A DNA stretch of 64,000 nt from Streptomyces sp. NBC_00376 (GTDB lineage Bacteria > Actinomycetota > Actinomycetes > Streptomycetales > Streptomycetaceae). The stretch spans positions 5,580,001 to 5,644,000 of the forward strand of contig NZ_CP107960.1 of assembly GCF_036077095.1 (NCBI RefSeq), read 5' to 3'. Shown in pieces: positions 6,924-64,000 of this stretch. Each line of letters opens with the position of its first letter. Position 1 is the stretch's first letter. Position numbers and translations under genes: made by a program. A model generated the notes under the pieces. The model worked only from the letters and a program-made list of their open reading frames with translations, had not been told where the DNA came from and searched no databases.

Positions 6924-8753
6924 CTATTCGACGGTGACGGACTTCGCCAGGTTGCGCGGCTTGTCGATGTCACGGCCCATGGCCAGCGCCGTGTGGTACG
7001 CGAAGAGCTGGAGCGGGATGCCCATCAGGATCGGGTCCAGCTCGTTCTCGTTCTTCGGTACGACGATGGTGTGGTCGGCCTTCTCCTGCACCTGGTGGGC
7101 GACGGCGAGGATGCGGCCGCTGCGGGCCTTGATCTCCTCCATCGCGGCGCGGTTCTTCTCCAGCAGGTCGTCGTCCGGCACGATCGCGACCGTCGGCATC
7201 GCGGGCTCGATCAGGGCCAGCGGCCCGTGCTTCAGCTCGGAGGCCGGGTACGCCTCCGCGTGGATGTACGAGACCTCCTTGAGCTTCAGCGAGGCCTCCC
7301 GGGCGACGGGGTAACCGCGCACCCGGCCGATGAACATCATCGACTTGGCGTCCGCGTACTCGGCCGCCATCTTCTTGATCTCGTCCTCGTTCGCCAGGAT
7401 CTCGCTGATCTGGGCGGGCAGCCTGCGCAGCCCCTCGATGATCCGCTTGCCGTCGGCGACCGACAGGTCCCGGATCCGGCCCAGGTGCAGGGCAAGCAGC
7501 GCGAACGCGACGACCGTGTTGGTGAAGCACTTGGTGGAGACGACGCAGACCTCGGGGCCGGCGTGGACGTACGTACCGCCGTCCGCCTCCCGGGCGATCG
7601 CGGAACCCACCACGTTGACGACGCCGAGCACCCGGGCGCCCTTGCGCTTGAGCTCCTGGACGGCGGCCAGCACGTCGTACGTCTCACCGGACTGGGAGAC
7701 CGCGACGTACAGCGTGTCCGGGTCGACGACCGGGTTGCGGTAGCGGAACTCGGAGGCCGGCTCGGCGTCCGCGGGGATACGGGCGAGCTCCTCGATCAGC
7801 TGCGCGCCGATCTGGCCCGCGTGGTACGAGGTGCCGCAGCCGAGAATCTTGATCCGGCGGACCCCGCGCGCCTCGCGGGCGTCCAGGTTGAGGCCGCCCA
7901 GGTGCACGGTGGCGAAGCGGTCGTCGATCCGGCCGCGCAGCACCCGGTCGACGGCGTCGGCCTGCTCGGAGATCTCCTTGTGCATGTACGTGTCGTGGCC
8001 GCCCATGTCGTACGACTCGGCCTCCCACTCCACGGTGGTCGGCGTGGCCGTCGTGGACGAGCCCTCCGTGGTGTACGTACGGAAGTCGTCGGCCTTGAGG
8101 GTGGCCATCTCGCCGTCGTCCAGGGTCACGACCTGGCGGGTGTGGGCGACCAGAGCGGCGACGTCCGAGGCGACGAACATCTCCTTCTCGCCGATGCCGA
8201 GCACGACCGGGGAGCCGTTGCGGGCGACCACGATGCGGTCGTTGAAGTCGGCGTGCATGACGGCGATGCCGTACGTGCCCTCGACCGAGCGCAGCGCCTC
8301 GCGGACCTTCTCCTCCAGGGTCTGCGCCTGGGCGCGGGCGATCAGGTGGACCAGCACCTCGGTGTCGGTCTCGGAGAGGAAGACGACACCGTCGGCGACG
8401 AGCTTCGCACGGAGCTCGGAGGCGTTGTCGATGATGCCGTTGTGGACGACTGCGACCTTGTTCTCGGCGTCCAGGTGCGGGTGCGCGTTCTCGTCGCTCG
8501 GGGCGCCGTGGGTGGCCCAGCGGGTGTGGGCGATACCGGTGGTGCCGGTGAAGCGCTTGGGGACGCGGGCCTCCAGCTCGCGGACCCGGCCCTTGGCCTT
8601 CACCATCCGCAGGGTGGCGGGCTTGCCGGCCGACGCCTTGCCGGTGATGACGATGCCCGCGGAGTCGTAACCCCGGTATTCCAGTCGCTGCAGCCCTTCC
8701 AGCAGCAGCGGAGCCACGTCACGCTTCCCGATGTATCCGACGATTCCGCACAT
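6924..8753 (-). CDS. glmS: Glutamine-fructose-6-phosphate aminotransferase (isomerizing)
   Basis: A 609-residue glucosamine-6-phosphate synthase, the entry step to UDP-GlcNAc and peptidoglycan. It starts MCGIVGYIG with Cys2 as the Ntn glutaminase nucleophile. The glutaminase domain runs to about residue 230 and contains HTRWATHG. Two SIS domains follow (CGTSYHAG and SQSGETYDV in the first), and the chain ends in the conserved NLAKSVTVE. Length is normal for the family. Other amino-sugar genes are nearby (GH20 at 10.3 kb), but no glmS ribozyme or DasR-like box is visible before it. Many Streptomyces carry two glmS copies; which one this is cannot be told from the window. Confidence 0.97.
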   Translation of the reverse strand: MCGIVGYIGKRDVAPLLLEGLQRLEYRGYDSAGIVITGKASAGKPATLRMVKAKGRVRELEARVPKRFTGTTGIAHTRWATHGAPSDENAHPHLDAENKVAVVHNGIIDNASELRAKLVADGVVFLSETDTEVLVHLIARAQAQTLEEKVREALRSVEGTYGIAVMHADFNDRIVVARNGSPVVLGIGEKEMFVASDVAALVAHTRQVVTLDDGEMATLKADDFRTYTTEGSSTTATPTTVEWEAESYDMGGHDTYMHKEISEQADAVDRVLRGRIDDRFATVHLGGLNLDAREARGVRRIKILGCGTSYHAGQIGAQLIEELARIPADAEPASEFRYRNPVVDPDTLYVAVSQSGETYDVLAAVQELKRKGARVLGVVNVVGSAIAREADGGTYVHAGPEVCVVSTKCFTNTVVAFALLALHLGRIRDLSVADGKRIIEGLRRLPAQISEILANEDEIKKMAAEYADAKSMMFIGRVRGYPVAREASLKLKEVSYIHAEAYPASELKHGPLALIEPAMPTVAIVPDDDLLEKNRAAMEEIKARSGRILAVAHQVQEKADHTIVVPKNENELDPILMGIPLQLFAYHTALAMGRDIDKPRNLAKSVTVE

Positions 8754-57509: not shown

Positions 57510-58115
57510 TCAGCAGGGCTCCCGGAGCAGCTGTTCCAGACTATCCAGCAGCCTCAGCGCGTCCGCCCGCTGCCGGGGCCCCAGCCGCTCGCCCGGCTCC
57601 GGCGCACCGGCCGCCGCCGGCGCGTACGCCGCCATCCGCAACGCCGCGGCGGCCTGCCGGGCGAACATGGCGAGCAGATCCAGTTCCCGGATGTCCGTGC
57701 GGGCACGGGGGGACGGGTCGAGCACCTCCAGCACACCGAGCACCCGGCCGTCGCTGATCAGCGGGGCCGCCATCAGGGCGCTGGGCACGAACTCGGTGGA
57801 CTCGGCGAGCGAACGGTCGAACGAGGAGTCCGTGCTGAGGTCGTCCACCACCATCGGCTCGCCGGACGTCGCCACCCAGCCCGCGATCCCGCGACCGGCC
57901 GGGAACCGACGGCCCACCAGGAACTCCTCGCCCCGGCCCGAGACCGCCTGGAAGACCAGCTCGTCCGCCTCCTCGTCCAGCAGGAAGACCGAACTGGCCG
58001 CCGCGCCGAAGATCGCGCGGGCCACGTCGACGACGGACTGGAGGAGCTCACGCCGGTGCGGATCGGCCGACGGCACCCTGCCCGCGGCGGACGCTGATTC
58101 AGTTCTCGGAGTCAT
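57510..58115 (-). CDS. Single GAF-domain protein
   Basis: A 201-residue protein with one GAF domain (about 30-165): AASSVFLLDEEADELVF, GRGIAGWVATSGEPMVVDDL and SALMAAPLISDGRVLGVLEV. No output domain follows, only a short helical tail. AGGAGAGG precedes GTG/ATG; the start overlaps the end of the protease gene by about 17 bp, so it belongs to the same operon. Ligand and partner are unknown; a role in sensing for the downstream-transcribed cluster is possible. Confidence 0.85.
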   Translation of the reverse strand: MTPRTESASAAGRVPSADPHRRELLQSVVDVARAIFGAAASSVFLLDEEADELVFQAVSGRGEEFLVGRRFPAGRGIAGWVATSGEPMVVDDLSTDSSFDRSLAESTEFVPSALMAAPLISDGRVLGVLEVLDPSPRARTDIRELDLLAMFARQAAAALRMAAYAPAAAGAPEPGERLGPRQRADALRLLDSLEQLLREPC

Positions 58116-58977
58116 CACAAACCTCTCCTGCCGGGGTGGAAAGCCGCGGACCGAACCGCACGTTGGCCGCGGAGAGATAGAGGGCGTTCTTGAGCTGGAA
58201 GGCCGTCATCCTCGGATGGGCCGAGAGCAGCCGCGCGCACAGTCCGCTGATGTACGGGGTCGCGAAGCTGTTCCCGGTGGTACGGATCGAGGTGCCGCCC
58301 AGCCAGGGCACCGTCACGTTCTGGCCGGGGGCGAAGAACTCCACCGGCGGGTCGGGGTTGTAGAGATGCAGGCCCGGGTCCTCCTCCTGGTGGCTGCCCA
58401 CGGAGATCACCGAGGCGAACCGCCACGGATAGCTCTCCACCGGGGAGTTGTGCGCCGAGGCGACGACGACCGTCCGGTTGAAGTAGGCGTGGTCGGCCAG
58501 CGCGTGCAACTCCTCGGCGAACCGGGCACGAGTGGTGGACAAGGACAGGTTCACCACGTCGAAACCCTGCTCCACCGCCCAGCGCAGCCCGGCCAGCAGC
58601 ACGTCCCCGGTACCGGAGAACCGCTCGCCCAGCACCCGTACGCTGTGCAGTTCGCAGTCCGGAGCGGTCCGCCGGATGATGCCCGCGCAGGCGGTGCCGT
58701 GTCCGCAGGAGTCCCCGGTGTCGGTCGGCCGCACCTCGGTCCCGCCCGTCTCCGGGTCCTTGACCACCACCCATGACCCCTCTACCGGGCCGACGCCCGG
58801 ATGATCGCGCTCGACGCCCGAGTCCACCACGCAGACCCGTACGCCCCGCCCCGTGCCCGGTACGCCCCCGGCGTCGTGCCCGGGGCCGGCGTCCGCGAGT
58901 ACCGCCACGTCGTCCGGGCCGCGCCCCCGCAGACTCCAGGTCAGTCCCGGCCCCGGTGCCGTGTCCGTGGTCGTCAT
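58099..58977 (-). CDS. Cytoplasmic subtilisin-like (S8) serine protease
   Basis: A 292-residue protease with an intact triad: Asp52 in VVDSGVERDHPG, His93 in SCGHGTACAG and Ser237 in TGNSFATPYISG, with oxyanion Asn177 in SAHNSP. There is no signal peptide, propeptide or membrane anchor, unlike most Streptomyces subtilisins, so it acts inside the cell. It starts 3 bp after the cyclase/ATPase gene and overlaps the GAF gene. In a RiPP operon it is the natural candidate for leader removal; a regulatory protease role is also possible. Confidence 0.9.
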   Translation of the reverse strand: MTTTDTAPGPGLTWSLRGRGPDDVAVLADAGPGHDAGGVPGTGRGVRVCVVDSGVERDHPGVGPVEGSWVVVKDPETGGTEVRPTDTGDSCGHGTACAGIIRRTAPDCELHSVRVLGERFSGTGDVLLAGLRWAVEQGFDVVNLSLSTTRARFAEELHALADHAYFNRTVVVASAHNSPVESYPWRFASVISVGSHQEEDPGLHLYNPDPPVEFFAPGQNVTVPWLGGTSIRTTGNSFATPYISGLCARLLSAHPRMTAFQLKNALYLSAANVRFGPRLSTPAGEVCDDSEN

Positions 58978-58980
58978 CCC

Positions 58981-61900
58981 TCAGCTCTTCTCCGTCGTGG
59001 CCGCCGCCGCTCCGACGGCGAGCCGTGCGGCCCACCGCCGGCCCGGCAGATGTCCCTTCTCCGTGAACCCTTCCCGGGCCTCCCGCGCCGCCGCCGCCGC
59101 GCCCGCCGCATCGCCCAGCAGCGCCAGCGTCCGCGCCCGGTCCAGCGACGCGGTGGCCCGCACCAGCGGGGAATCGGTCAGCAGGGAGTCCCGCACGGCA
59201 CGGTCCGCGTGGCGCAGGGCCGACGCCCCGTCCCCGGCCCCGGCCGCCAGCCGGGCCCGCAGTCCCGCCAGGTCCACCCGGTCCGAGTGCGGCAGCGACC
59301 GCGGTGCCCCGACCCCTTCGAGCCACGCACCGGCATCGTCCGGCCGGTCGTCGTCGAGCAGCAGCCGCGCCGCCTCCAGCGCGATGGCCGGACGCATGGA
59401 CCGGGCCCCGCCGCGCTCCGCCGCACGGTCCGCCCGGACGAGCAGGTCCAGGGCCGGTCCGGTGCGCCCGAGCAGCGCCTCGACCGTCGCCCGGAACACC
59501 GGCAGGAAGACCTCCGCCTCCGCGTACCCCAGCTCGTCGGCCAGCCGCTCCGCCTCGGCCAGGCACTCCCCGGCCCGGTCCGCCCGGCCGTGCAGGGCGT
59601 AGAGCACGGCCAGCGGACAGTTCAGCGTGGTCCGTACGGCGGGGCGGCCGGAGCCGTGCGCGGCGAGCAGGTCACGGCAGCGGTTCACCGCGACCGGTAC
59701 CGGCTCCGGGCCGCGCCACAGCGAGATCCCGATGGCCCCGAGCGCGGCCGCCCGCTCCGGCTCGGCCTCCGCCCGCACCGCGTGGTCCAGGGCCAGGGTC
59801 AGATCGCGGTCGGCCTCCTCGTGGCGGCCGGCCAGCTGCAACCGCTGCGCGAGCCGCAGCCGGGCCCGGGCCTGCCCGACGGAGTCCCCGGCCGACTCGA
59901 AGAGCGGCAGCACCGACCGGGCGGTGGCCGACACATTCGCCGAGGCCGGGTCCAGCACCGCCAGCGCGAGCCGGGCGTGCGCGGCCTCCACCGGCGCGGT
60001 CCCGATGGCCAGCACCTGCCGCAGCAGCCGTTCCCCGTCCTCGGAACGGCCGAGCGCGAGACGCACCTCGCCCAGGCGCCGCAACGCCGGGGCCGCGGCC
60101 GGATCACCGGCCGGGTGCAGGTCCACGGCCCGCTCCAACAGGCCCTGGGCCCAGTGCAGATCGGAACGGGCCAGGGCCTGCGCACCGGCCGAGGCGAGCG
60201 CCGCGGCGGCCCGGACCCGCAGGGCGGCGGCCCGGTCGTCGGCCAGACCGAGCTCGGTGCGGTACCGGTACGCCCGCTCCAGGTGCCCGCCGACCGCCGC
60301 CTCGCCCGCCGCCGTCACACTGGGCAGCTCGGACGCCCAGGCGTGCCGCTCGGCCTTGGCCCGCTTCGACAGGGAGGCGTACGCCACCTCCTGGACCAGA
60401 CCGCTGCTGAACCGGTGCCGGCCCGTTCCCGGTTCGCCGCCGGGCGCGGCCTCCACCAGCCGGCGTCCGCACAGCCGGGCCAGCGCGCGGGCGACCCGGC
60501 CGCGGTCGTCCTCCGGTGCGGACACCTCGGGGTGGGCGGCCGGGGCGGTACGGGCCGCGCCCTCCGTCCCGCGTGCCGCCCGGGCCAGCCGGACGAGTTC
60601 GGGCGCGGTGAAGTCCCGGCCGACGACCGCCGCCAGGTCCAGCGTGGTGCGTTCGGCACGCTCCAGCGCGCCGATCCGGGCACCGAGCAGCGCCTGGAGG
60701 GTCGGCGGCAGCGCCGCGCCCGGCACGTTCCGCGCACCCTCCGGCGCCGGGCCCGCGGGGACGAGGAGCTGTTCCAGATAGAGCGGGTTGCCCTCGGCCC
60801 GGTCGTACAGCTCACGGTCGTACCCGCCGGGGGCGGCCGGAGCGGCTTCGTCCGGGACGGTGCCGTCCGGGGCGGTTCCCGCGCCCGGCCCGGTCAGTTC
60901 GCGGGCCAGCAGGGCGGCCTCGTCGCGCGGCAGCCCGGTGAGCGGCACGATCTGCGCCGGACGCGCGGCCGGGTCGGCGACGGCCGGGGGGCCGTCCGGG
61001 CGGCCCGGACACACGATGAGTCCGCCCGCCCGGCCGAGCGGCCCGGCCAGCCGGTTCACCGCCCGCACCAGCAGCGGTTCGGCCCAGTGCCAGTCGTCGA
61101 GGACCAGCAGGACCGGCCGCCGCGCCGCCGTCCGGGACAGCACGGTGACCAGCGCCGCGCACATGTCCTCGAACGGGGCGTTGGGCGTGCCGTCGTGCAG
61201 CAGACCGCCGCGCAGCAGCGCCCAGGCGTCCGCCACGGACGCACCGGACCGCCCGGACGCCCCGTCCAGCGCCTCCCGGGCGACGGGCGAGCCGAGCACC
61301 TCCCGCACCGCGTCGGCCAGCGACGCGAGGGTGCCGTGGTCGCCGTAGCTGCGACAGCGCCCGGTGCCGACGACCGGCCGCTCGGGCCCGCCGAGCCCGG
61401 TCAGCCACTCGCGCGCCAGCCGGGTCTTGCCGATCCCCGCGTCACCGACGAGGCGGACAAGACCCGGGCCCGCCCCGCGCACCGTACGGTCCAACGCCTC
61501 GTCCAGCGAAGCCAGTTCCGCGGCGCGGCCGATGAACGGCACGTCGAAACGGCGCAGCAGCTCCGGGTCGTCGGCGCCGAGCGCGATCAGCCGGTACGCG
61601 TGCACGCTGTCGGTCTTGCCCTTGAGCCGCAGCGGGCCCGTCTCCTGCACGACCACGGTCGGACCGGCCGCCTCCAGGGTCTGCGGGCCGATCAGGATCT
61701 CACCGGCCGCCGCGTTCTGTTCCAGCCGGGCAGCCACGTTCACCGTCTCGCCCGAGATCAGCGCCTGCCGGGTGCTGGCATCGGAACTCGCCACCACCTG
61801 ACCGGTGTTGACGCCGATCCGGATGTCGAGCCGGATGCCCAGGGTGGCTTCGAGATCGGTGTTCAGCTCCGCCAGCGCCTCGCGCATGCCGAGCGCCGCG

Positions 61901-62229
61901 GCGAGCGCTCGCCGCGCGTCGTCCTCACGCATCACCGGCACCCCGAACACCGCCATCACGGCATCGCCGATGAACTTCTCCGGAGTGCCGCCGTGCGCCT
62001 CGATCCGCTCGCTCATCACCGCGAAGTAGCGCAGCGTCACGGTGCGCAGGGTCTCCGGGTCCAGCAGCCCGGACAGCGCCGTGGAGCCCACCAGATCGCA
62101 GAAGACCGCGGTGACCAGCTTGCGTTCGTCCTCCGGCGCCGCGGCGACCGGGGACGGGCACGGGGTGCCGCAGGACGGGCAGAACCGTGCGGCGGCGGGC
62201 AGTTCGTGCCGGCACGAGGTGCAGTTCAT
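58981..62229 (-). CDS. Zinc ribbon - class III cyclase - ATPase/TPR regulatory protein
   Basis: A 1082-residue cytoplasmic protein. Residues 1-22 form a zinc ribbon (Cys3, Cys6, Cys17, Cys20). Residues 35-215 are a class III nucleotidyl cyclase domain with metal Asp45 (VFCDLVGST) and Asp89 (KFIGDAVMAVFG), and Asn164/Arg168 of the transition-state pair. From 230 comes an AAA/STAND ATPase (FIGRAAELASLDEAL, Walker A GDAGIGKT at 262-269, VLDDWHWAE). The rest is TPR-like helices. No LuxR helix-turn-helix is at the end. The cyclase looks catalytically competent, so cAMP may be made, gated by the ATPase. It lies between the precursor and protease genes. Confidence 0.9.
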   Translation of the reverse strand: MNCTSCRHELPAAARFCPSCGTPCPSPVAAAPEDERKLVTAVFCDLVGSTALSGLLDPETLRTVTLRYFAVMSERIEAHGGTPEKFIGDAVMAVFGVPVMREDDARRALAAALGMREALAELNTDLEATLGIRLDIRIGVNTGQVVASSDASTRQALISGETVNVAARLEQNAAAGEILIGPQTLEAAGPTVVVQETGPLRLKGKTDSVHAYRLIALGADDPELLRRFDVPFIGRAAELASLDEALDRTVRGAGPGLVRLVGDAGIGKTRLAREWLTGLGGPERPVVGTGRCRSYGDHGTLASLADAVREVLGSPVAREALDGASGRSGASVADAWALLRGGLLHDGTPNAPFEDMCAALVTVLSRTAARRPVLLVLDDWHWAEPLLVRAVNRLAGPLGRAGGLIVCPGRPDGPPAVADPAARPAQIVPLTGLPRDEAALLARELTGPGAGTAPDGTVPDEAAPAAPGGYDRELYDRAEGNPLYLEQLLVPAGPAPEGARNVPGAALPPTLQALLGARIGALERAERTTLDLAAVVGRDFTAPELVRLARAARGTEGAARTAPAAHPEVSAPEDDRGRVARALARLCGRRLVEAAPGGEPGTGRHRFSSGLVQEVAYASLSKRAKAERHAWASELPSVTAAGEAAVGGHLERAYRYRTELGLADDRAAALRVRAAAALASAGAQALARSDLHWAQGLLERAVDLHPAGDPAAAPALRRLGEVRLALGRSEDGERLLRQVLAIGTAPVEAAHARLALAVLDPASANVSATARSVLPLFESAGDSVGQARARLRLAQRLQLAGRHEEADRDLTLALDHAVRAEAEPERAAALGAIGISLWRGPEPVPVAVNRCRDLLAAHGSGRPAVRTTLNCPLAVLYALHGRADRAGECLAEAERLADELGYAEAEVFLPVFRATVEALLGRTGPALDLLVRADRAAERGGARSMRPAIALEAARLLLDDDRPDDAGAWLEGVGAPRSLPHSDRVDLAGLRARLAAGAGDGASALRHADRAVRDSLLTDSPLVRATASLDRARTLALLGDAAGAAAAAREAREGFTEKGHLPGRRWAARLAVGAAAATTEKS

Positions 62230-62345: not shown

Positions 62346-62546
62346 TCAGAAGAGGGCGCCGCCCGCGATCTCGCCGTGCGCCTGCACCTCGGGCCCCACG
62401 GCGTCGAGCCGGCTCTTGATGTCGAGCAGCACGGTGAGTTCCTCCGGCGCGAGGTCGTTGAGCACCTGGCGCTGTTCGTCGGTGAGCAGATCGACGGCGA
62501 AGCCGGCGCCGTACAGCACGGCGAGCCGGTCCGGTGGTTCGGTCAT
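62346..62546 (-). CDS. RiPP precursor-like peptide ('aroma-sacti' type)
   Basis: A 66-residue peptide with an acidic helical leader-like part (LTDEQRQVLNDLAPEELTVL, then LDIKSRLDAVG) and a short Gly-rich end, AHGEIAGGALF, with a C-terminal aromatic residue. From memory this matches small proteins labelled aroma-sacti cluster domain in actinobacteria, thought to be substrates of a neighbouring radical SAM enzyme. There is no Cys, and the tail lacks Ser/Thr, so thioether or lanthionine rings are excluded. The ATG overlaps the stop of the HDO-like gene (ATGA, 62543-62546), and a hairpin follows. Modification site and product are unknown. Confidence 0.8.
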   Translation of the reverse strand: MTEPPDRLAVLYGAGFAVDLLTDEQRQVLNDLAPEELTVLLDIKSRLDAVGPEVQAHGEIAGGALF

Positions 62547-63307
62547 GTCTGGCCTTCCCTCGGGACGGACCGCCCGGCTCCCCGCACCGGCGGTGCCGGT
62601 CCGGTGCGCCCGAGCCGGACGAACAACTGGGTGAGCGCGTCCGTGGTGTGCAGGGCGCTGACGGCGACGGCCGTCTCCTGGCCCCGCGACAGCGGCAACC
62701 GGTCGAGCAGTGCGTACAGTTCGCCGGCGTGGCCGTTGTCGAGCCGCGCGTGCTCGTGCACGGTGCGGAACGCCGGGGCGGGCAGCCCGGTCGAGCGGGC
62801 CAGCCGCGGTGCGAGGCCGGCCGCCGGGGCGTGCCCCTCCAGCACCGCGATGTAGCCGAGCAGCGCCACCGGGTGGTGGTGCTCGATCCAGTAGTACTGG
62901 GCCCCCGCCAGGGAGGCGACGAGCGGGGAGGGGACCGGGTCCAGCGCGGCCCGGGGCCCGCTGCCCGCCGCCGACAGGTCCTCCAGCAGCCAGCTGTCGT
63001 GCTCCGCCTCCTCCCGGATGTGCCCGTCCAGGTAGGCGGCCAGTGGCGCCCCCAGCGGATCGCCGCACCGGGCCAGTTGCTCGGCCCGTTCGGCGGCCCG
63101 TTCCATCAGCGGTACGGAGGCCCGGATGACCGTGTGCATCGCGCACAGGTAGGCCCGGTAGCGGGGCAACAGCCCATCGGACCGCCACAGCGCGGCCGAC
63201 GAGGCACGCAACGCCGGTTCGGCGAAGGCGAGTTTGACCCGCAGCCGCTCGGAGGCCGGCAGCCCGCGCCCGCCGCAGCGCGCTCCCGGCGCCCCGGTGG
63301 GGTTCAC
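62543..63307 (-). CDS. Heme-oxygenase-like (HDO-type) non-heme iron protein
   Basis: A 254-residue all-helical protein. HIREEAEH (His96, Glu99/100, Glu102, His103), VLEGH (Glu157, His159) and HARLDNGH (His186, Asp190, His193) place His/Glu/Asp as in diiron heme-oxygenase-like oxidases and TenA relatives. The GTG start overlaps the radical SAM stop (GTGA at 63304-63307), and its own stop overlaps the precursor start, so all three are coupled. It probably performs an oxidative step on the peptide or supplies a cofactor. The family is inferred from the motif pattern; substrate unknown. Confidence 0.8.
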   Translation of the reverse strand: MNPTGAPGARCGGRGLPASERLRVKLAFAEPALRASSAALWRSDGLLPRYRAYLCAMHTVIRASVPLMERAAERAEQLARCGDPLGAPLAAYLDGHIREEAEHDSWLLEDLSAAGSGPRAALDPVPSPLVASLAGAQYYWIEHHHPVALLGYIAVLEGHAPAAGLAPRLARSTGLPAPAFRTVHEHARLDNGHAGELYALLDRLPLSRGQETAVAVSALHTTDALTQLFVRLGRTGPAPPVRGAGRSVPREGQT

Positions 63308-64000
63308 GACCCGGCGCCTTCCGTCGCCGGACGCGGGTTCCGCCCGCCGCCCGGGGCCGCCACCAGACCGGCGTACGCGGCACAGCCGTGGCGTCGTACC
63401 AGCGACACCGGACCCTGCTCGTGCTGCCGGCGGGCGGCGGTCAGATCGAGCAGCGCGCCGGCAGCGCCTGAGGCCAGCGCGTCGGCAGCCGCGACCACCT
63501 CCGGCAGCCCGCCCAGCCGGCGGCAGTCCCCGCAGTAGGAACCGGCCGGTGTGCCGGGCGACCAGCGCTGCCGCAGATGGGCCGGGCCGACCGTGCGGAC
63601 CAGACGCAGCAGCGGCGAACCGAGCGTCCGCGACCGTACGGCCGGCCAGTCGTCCTGCGCGACATGGCCGAGCCGCAGATGGGGCGGTACGGGGCGGTGA
63701 TCCACCGCGTCCTGGTTGCAGCAGGCCAGGACCGTTCCGTCGAAGGCGACCACCGGCCAGGCGGCCATCGCGCACGGCAGCGCCCCCTCGCCGTCCGGCA
63801 CGGTCCGGGCCGGCCGGGCCCAGGACGCGGCCCGGCCGAACGGCCGCACCTCGTTGACCAGGGACGGCACCGTGCCGTTGAAGGCCCGGTCGATGTCCGC
63901 GGTGACGTCCGCGAGATAGCCGTCGTCCGCTCCGGTGCCGGTGAGATGGAAGCTGACCGCCACCCCCAGTTCGCGGATCTCGCGCACCGCGCGGAACACC
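63304..64000 (-). CDS. Radical SAM/SPASM-type protein, C-terminal part
   Basis: The last 231 codons of a minus-strand gene that continues past the right edge. The visible part has late barrel elements (GVAVSFHLTGTG, LADVTADIDRAF) and a SPASM-like cysteine region: ALPCAMAAW, VVAFDGTVLACCNQ and YCGDCRRL, which can ligate auxiliary iron-sulphur clusters. The CxxxCxxC radical SAM motif would be outside the window. VAFDGTVLACCNQ is typical of peptide-modifying radical SAM enzymes. It overlaps the HDO-like gene by 4 bp and should act on the 66-residue peptide. Confidence 0.82.
   Translation of the reverse strand, partial: VFRAVREIRELGVAVSFHLTGTGADDGYLADVTADIDRAFNGTVPSLVNEVRPFGRAASWARPARTVPDGEGALPCAMAAWPVVAFDGTVLACCNQDAVDHRPVPPHLRLGHVAQDDWPAVRSRTLGSPLLRLVRTVGPAHLRQRWSPGTPAGSYCGDCRRLGGLPEVVAAADALASGAAGALLDLTAARRQHEQGPVSLVRRHGCAAYAGLVAAPGGGRNPRPATEGAGS

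Follow-up and report, generated by a model that had tools for sequence, protein, structure and literature searches.

What might two chemically different iron enzymes do to one 66-residue peptide? The question is raised by the right-hand end of a 64,000-nucleotide stretch from Streptomyces sp. NBC_00376 (NZ_CP107960.1, positions 5,580,001 to 5,644,000, here called the window), where the genes for a radical S-adenosylmethionine (SAM) enzyme, a heme-oxygenase-like dimetal oxidase (HDO) and a small peptide overlap in series. The three open reading frames (ORFs) and two 4 bp overlaps described in the first-pass annotation are all present on the minus strand, the radical SAM and HDO genes sharing GTGA at 63307-63304 and the HDO and peptide genes ATGA at 62546-62543. 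A genetically encoded precursor adjoins its modifying enzymes, the arrangement expected of a ribosomally synthesised and post-translationally modified peptide (RiPP). The proposal of a RiPP-type locus in which one peptide is served by two chemically different enzymes is supported but was incomplete: the unit consists of six genes, encoding in order the radical SAM enzyme, HDO, peptide, cyclase, S8 subtilase and GAF-domain protein, rather than the three noted at first, and many of the loci adjoin a second RiPP system. The reading preferred here, held to be moderately probable, is of a conserved RiPP operon in which the peptide tail would be altered by two iron enzymes, freed by the subtilase and coupled to expression by signalling proteins.

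The operon is conserved as a unit. HDO homologues were sought in 295 genomes of the genus (E <= 1e-10) and the loci of the 43 other positive genomes were then examined. They are present in 44 of the 295, the window's own included, and the full six-gene order is found in 37 of these 44 loci. Of the remaining seven, three (L037, L052 and L072) reach contig ends, one (L068) has no peptide gene next to the others and one (L069) is rearranged; in L070 and L074 the S8-GAF pair stands in front and the cyclase is more diverged. Gene counts were made with a home-made gene caller and checked by tblastn; the locus tally left out cyclase matches below 33% and S8 matches below 45% identity. The spacing from radical SAM to HDO gene is -4 in 37 out of 41 measurable cases, counted by hand from gene-caller starts, and of the 44 HDO copies from loci where a peptide gene is present, 38 have a stop codon overlapped by a start codon of the peptide, by 4 bp in 31 and by 8 bp in 7; the other 6 show no such overlap.

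The sequences around the operon vary. LanKC-like genes are found in 21 loci, comprising type A, the window's kind, together with L050 and L051. Of the 14 type B loci (L053-L066), 12 carry a glycosyltransferase, 12 a prolyl oligopeptidase and 10 a DUF6895-radical SAM-DUF6895 arrangement, some loci ending earlier. The seven type C loci have two radical SAM genes, with a major facilitator superfamily (MFS) gene in 4. The radical SAM, HDO and peptide genes are adjacent in the same order at distant loci with differing flanks, and since the core order is kept while the flanks change, this is not mere synteny of near strains. An HDO gene adjoins in all 42 named genome contigs found via the peptide and a radical SAM gene in 39, the other three lying close to the end of a contig or on a short one. 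These contigs, with S. griseus and S. albidoflavus among the carriers (loci L151 and L147), were retrieved with patterns including part of the tail, therefore their tails are not independent evidence.

The precursor gene (62346-62546, minus strand) encodes the 66-residue aroma-sacti peptide predicted by the first-pass annotation, with an NCBIfam NF045560 match covering residues 6-57 at 76.3 bits (cut-off 30). The peptide ends in AGGALF (codons 61-66, 62349-62366, minus strand), the proposed modified core. This ending is found in 36 of 41 loci, the exceptions being L067, L070, L071, L073 and L072 (AGAALF), with L074 added later. Among the best 120 of 329 database matches, a sample biased toward close relatives, 119 tails are AGGALF and one is AGGVVW. 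Over the 36 loci, the ratio of non-synonymous to synonymous variation (pN/pS) is 0.485 in the leader and 0.03 in the EVxAH motif. As this set is the 36 of 41 loci ending in AGGALF, a pN of 0 there comes by selection; the information lies in the silent variation, with pS at 0.355 for the AGGALF codons, and in the contrast of leader and EVxAH. A G-x-x-[LVIF]-[FW] tail accompanies the EpeE-like radical SAM enzyme and HDO. Loci with one radical SAM gene have F-ended peptides. Where there are two, L067 and L069 each encode one W-ended and one F-ended peptide and L070, L071, L073 and L074 a W-ended one, while the sole, F-ended peptide of L068 is not adjacent but lies about 22 kb from the HDO gene. 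The peptide is very probably a RiPP precursor, and its tail is probably the modified site.

Despite the aroma-sacti label, the peptide is not a sactipeptide, because it has no Cys; it scores only 22.8 of the 75 bits required by the StsA model NF045559. Among the same best 120 of 329 matches, 118 have no Cys and two have one, in the leader. In three loci the reading frame of an MFS gene continues into that of an aroma-sacti peptide (L067:10691-12313, L069:12743-14272 and L070:8450-10000). These nested peptides have their own ribosome-binding-like sequence and ATG, so that internal initiation is as likely as an MFS-peptide fusion.

The right edge of the window falls inside the radical SAM gene, the 3' part of which occupies 63304-64000 (minus strand). 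The ORF continues to about 64410, giving a full gene for 368 residues (7304-8410 in the numbering of locus L002, 63304-64410 in that of the window). The core motif that the first-pass annotation had placed beyond 64000 is there, as CPLRCAHC (CxxxCxxC). The label of a SPASM-type enzyme does not hold: Pfam returns Radical_SAM (2.5e-12) and no SPASM match (PF13186), with a sub-threshold SPASM match in the diverged relative in L067. Beyond the Cys of the SAM cluster, only C213, C230, C231, C293 and C296 are conserved, which would suffice for one auxiliary cluster. Sequence profile and predicted fold both place EpeE/YydG as the closest fold and closest solved structure, and the profile match to EpeE (7e-11) exceeds that to PqqE (1.4e-6). 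C231, of the C230/C231 pair encoded at 63723-63718 (minus strand), aligns as the equivalent of the EpeE catalytic Cys223 and is kept in 40 of 42 first radical SAM enzymes (rSAM1) and 57 of 57 in A5. By these comparisons the enzyme is EpeE/YydG-like; whether it epimerises its substrate is judged an even chance.

The HDO gene (62543-63307, minus strand) encodes 254 residues. Its assignment as a heme-oxygenase-like protein is borne out by the Pfam family Haem_oxygenas_2 (2.7e-11), and H186-x3-D190-x2-H193 is present as claimed. Together with E100, H103 and E157 these residues form the 3-His/3-carboxylate ligand set on a heme-oxygenase fold that characterises the superfamily, as described in section 4 of a review (PMC13108848). 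Within that review UndA is a fatty acid decarboxylase, and the account of thiovarsolin biosynthesis in PMC6511847 provides a RiPP precedent for desaturation in VarO. For the HDO of the window the reaction put forward, as a doubtful proposal, is desaturation of the peptide's terminal Phe or its oxidative decarboxylation.

The three remaining proteins of the operon are also encoded on the minus strand. Domain searches of the 1082-residue protein (58981-62229) identify a zinc ribbon, a class III nucleotide cyclase, an AAA_16 ATPase and TPR repeats; D45, K85 and D89, which we take to be cyclase residues, and K268, presumably of the P-loop, are kept in 40-41 of 41. The S8 subtilase (58099-58977, 292 residues, PF00082 2.5e-26) matches subtilisin BPN' at 1e-27, and its triad D52/H93/S237 is kept in 41-42 of 42. 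No signal peptide was seen on inspection of the subtilase by eye. The gene of the GAF-domain protein (57510-58118, 202 residues, PF01590 7e-22) overlaps that of the subtilase. A role for the cyclase and GAF proteins in signalling is a tentative suggestion.

The peptide of the window has EVQAH at codons 53-57 (62376-62390, minus strand), a proposed protease recognition site that is common to the LanA and other partner peptides. All 39 called peptides and all 24 LanA have the form [DE]Vx[AG]H, EVVAH is found in small peptides of eight type B loci (L056 and L060-L066), and VEGQ stands at this site in both aroma proteins of L113-L116. This suggests one common reader of EVxAH, most simply the subtilase. 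That the subtilase cleaves near the motif is given slightly less than an even chance.

The operon and its conservation, the domains, the positions of metal ligands and Cys and the constraint on the tail are computational results, from which we infer the chemical steps, the cut site, the export and the signalling. In the peptide, the aroma-sacti domain would serve as leader, followed by an EVxAH segment and a C-terminal core, xxIAGGALF, both of them fixed. The radical SAM enzyme would most likely take an alpha-hydrogen from the tail and Cys231 return one, converting an L-residue to D, with the penultimate aliphatic residue, Leu65, as the best candidate. The HDO would oxidise the same tail, most likely at the C-terminal Phe. 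Cleavage by the subtilase near EVxAH would give a product of roughly nine residues, probably exported through an MFS pump, and the cyclase/ATPase and GAF proteins may couple product or precursor to expression of the operon and the neighbouring RiPP genes.

In a phylum-wide search NF045560 matched 6 of 396 genomes, 4 over the cut-off and 3 of these in the genus; a class-wide search with the radical SAM enzyme found 7 of 394, of which 5 are in the genus, the window's own included, and 2 in another actinobacterial family (L178 and L179). L178 has the full gene set. It holds two radical SAM genes and, at L178:11746-12675 (plus strand), four tandem aroma-sacti peptide ORFs, three of them taken by the gene caller, with three different tails, all Trp-ended. 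At L179:2699-10358, two EpeE-like radical SAM genes have as neighbours a gene resembling LanKC and a small peptide with EVQAH. Five genomes of the genus (G039, G071, G134, G167 and G227) have NF045560 matches only below the cut-off; the operon is absent from the gene calls of the two fetched, G134 and G227, and from those of a second, low-scoring place in G199 (L121-L123 for the three places).

Several findings weigh against the preferred reading. The stretch between EVxAH and AGGALF, the three residues after the motif, is weakly constrained (pN/pS 0.80). When the radical SAM tree is rooted on the second enzyme, loci with one such gene form a single clade (support 0.979) within those with two, so that the association of F or W tails with enzyme number reflects one ancestral change rather than many; it is also broken by the F-ended peptides of L067, L069 and, at a distance, L068. 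The window's enzyme has no Asp where Asp210 of EpeE, a residue mutated in one solved entry, aligns, and the alignment has a gap beside that position; its score for the YydG equivalog TIGR04078 is far below the cut-off (35.3 of 300 bits). The rSAM1 of L069 and L074 are without the second Cys, which together with the missing Asp210 counterpart makes a different radical reaction possible. An HDO copy in L074 (10165-10809, minus strand) has lost two ligands of HxxxDxxH, the Asp and the second His, the cluster being otherwise retained. [DE]Vx[AG]H is not confined to the peptides: of 585 other called proteins 55 have it, 26 being SARP regulators. No HDO or aroma peptide was found in 20 kb at L179, which has two radical SAM genes and LanKC.

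Co-occurrence of the precursor with both enzymes, proposed as a check on the locus, is the rule and yet not complete; neither this check nor that for a radical SAM core beyond 64000, the two named by the first-pass annotation as able to refute its reading, does so. NF045560 is above its cut-off in 53 of the 295 genomes, including all 44 with HDO, and nine have the aroma domain without HDO (G012, G046, G074, G083, G116, G145, G147, G209 and G278), set in other RiPP clusters. The cyclase is present in all nine and the S8 and GAF genes in seven, the other two stopping at contig ends. The cyclase-S8-GAF block should therefore be seen as a control block common to several RiPP types. A second aroma-led precursor with Cys lies elsewhere in these loci, adjoining other radical SAM genes and ending in NVVC in four and containing CACGLW in five. 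In L112, the one tested of the five, the precursor passes StsA (133 of 75 bits) and the radical SAM enzyme StsB (886.6 of 625). At L112:5696-6187 (plus strand), and likewise in L114-L120, a LuxR-type helix-turn-helix (HTH) and an aroma-sacti domain with a DLKLL end are in one ORF directly upstream of the cyclase; Pfam identifies LuxR-type GerE in both L112 and L115, the two that were tested. For some of the HTH-aroma ORFs (L113-L116), too, internal initiation is as likely as fusion. It is possible that the HTH-aroma protein is a regulator mimicking a precursor leader.

An aroma domain ending in DLKLL is upstream of the cyclase in all nine HDO-less genomes, joined to an HTH part in eight. This equally fixed but different tail suggests another role for the peptide of the window, as a regulatory subunit of the cyclase rather than a secreted product, the modified tail of a control protein switching cyclase or protease. 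Tails of antimicrobial RiPPs are usually far less conserved than those found here. The four tandem peptides of L178, with three tails, are RiPP-precursor-like, however, L067 and L069 have two peptides each, the operon includes a subtilase and most loci have MFS genes, and such a subunit is considered unlikely. Another reading, also rather unlikely, is that the peptide serves as a modified, hyper-conserved signal. Between them an EpeE-like epimerase and a diiron oxidase would shape the tail of what is a small control protein, whose release by the dedicated subtilase would drive cyclic-nucleotide signalling and turn on whichever RiPP cluster is adjacent. The aroma-cyclase-subtilase-GAF cassette would then also be paired with at least three other maturation systems (LanKC; radical SAM with DUF6895 or alone; StsB) sharing an EVxAH-like tag.

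The fixed C-terminal residues with an aromatic end, and the set of radical SAM enzyme, heme-oxygenase-like enzyme and peptidase, recall the genes for pyrroloquinoline quinone (PQQ). What is cut from the tail could be a redox cofactor or a small hormone-like molecule, as PQQ and mycofactocin are cut from PqqA and MftA. PqqE is among the profile matches, but is weaker than EpeE, and no partner dehydrogenase was identified among the recurring neighbours, several families of which lack annotation; this origin is improbable. More improbable still is a role in phage defence or conflict, with the peptide as the effector and cyclase, protease and GAF protein as sensor and effector parts. The cyclase domain matches Pycsar cyclase models (5.3e-16), and in the part of PMC7159879 covered here conflict systems repeatedly hold cyclase and peptidase domains, some with FxSxx peptides. 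These cyclase matches are to a generic domain, however, SARP, MFS and RiPP genes adjoin, and the six proteins of the operon, the neighbours being only partly searched, have no vWA, MoxR or metallopeptidase domain. A defence system was also rejected on PADLOC, which matches only cyclase, subtilase and viperin-core.

Divergently upstream of the operon are a small LanA-like precursor, an MFS transporter, a LanKC-like synthetase, named from inspection of its sequence rather than a domain search, and SARP and LuxR-LAL regulators (L002:8759-18428). The small gene (L002:8759-8914, plus strand) is read as a putative class III lanthipeptide precursor (LanA), the NCBIfam SapB/AmfS model giving 12 of 25 bits, below the cut-off. 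In its core, GSCVSTVSLVLSEQ, the sole Cys precedes most Ser/Thr, an order that is to our knowledge unusual among class III lanthipeptides. LanA and the type B small ORF of L060 (end 11854, plus strand) share an N-terminal MxENTxP...EVxAH and a Cys-before-Ser core; for the single pair of the window's LanA and a type B peptide, the alignment over MxENTxP...EVxAH has an E of 8e-4. Their enzyme neighbours differ, with a lanthionine-synthetase-like gene beside LanA and a radical SAM gene with DUF6895 proteins beside the L060 peptide. One precursor family is apparently handed to different enzyme classes.

Position and gene coupling tie the HDO to an EpeE-like enzyme and a fixed peptide, which gives it a defined candidate substrate. 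As the tail is near-constant across many species, common strains such as S. griseus and S. albidoflavus could be searched for one and the same product. A shared cassette, if true, would explain how a single protease and a single signalling module come to be coupled to several types of RiPP in Streptomyces. In the literature searched, mostly open access and exclusive of bioRxiv preprints and most subscription papers, no paper using the term aroma-sacti and no description of a radical SAM/HDO RiPP pair of this kind was found. The portion of PMC8120280 covered mentions a heme-oxygenase-like protein and radical SAM proteins in thioamidated RiPP clusters. Functionally validated HDOs number about a dozen according to section 4 of the 2026 review (PMC13108848), and the RiPP-linked HDO in the literature consulted is VarO.

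The closest known systems each share some features with this operon and differ in others. The epipeptide system EpeX/EpeE (formerly YydF/YydG) of Bacillus subtilis shares a peptide-modifying radical SAM enzyme of the closest fold with the position of catalytic Cys223 kept, but has another leader and core, the Asp210 and YydG equivalog differences already given, and no HDO, cyclase or GAF protein mentioned in the portion of its literature consulted. PQQ and mycofactocin have a fixed C-terminal aromatic core, a radical SAM enzyme and a peptidase like this operon, PQQ also a heme-oxygenase-like oxidase, yet differ in their SPASM radical SAM enzymes, partner dehydrogenases and lack of cyclase and GAF proteins. 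The thiovarsolin gene cluster likewise has a heme-oxygenase-like protein tailoring a RiPP, VarO, for which deletion suggested a dehydrogenase; as far as described in the sections of PMC6511847 used, it is a YcaO/TfuA thioamide pathway with an Arg side chain as target and no radical SAM enzyme named in the seven-gene set. FxSxx-COOH/VMAP systems, as presented in part of PMC7159879, resemble the operon in their radical SAM enzyme, conserved C-terminal peptide and NTPase-TPR partner, but the tail here is AGGALF and not FxSxx, and their metallopeptidase and vWA-MoxR are absent from its six proteins. The StsA/StsB sactipeptide clusters (NF045559 and NF045574) differ in their Cys-bearing precursor, their SPASM radical SAM enzyme and their lack of HDO, but have both the leader domain and the cyclase-S8-GAF block in common with this operon.
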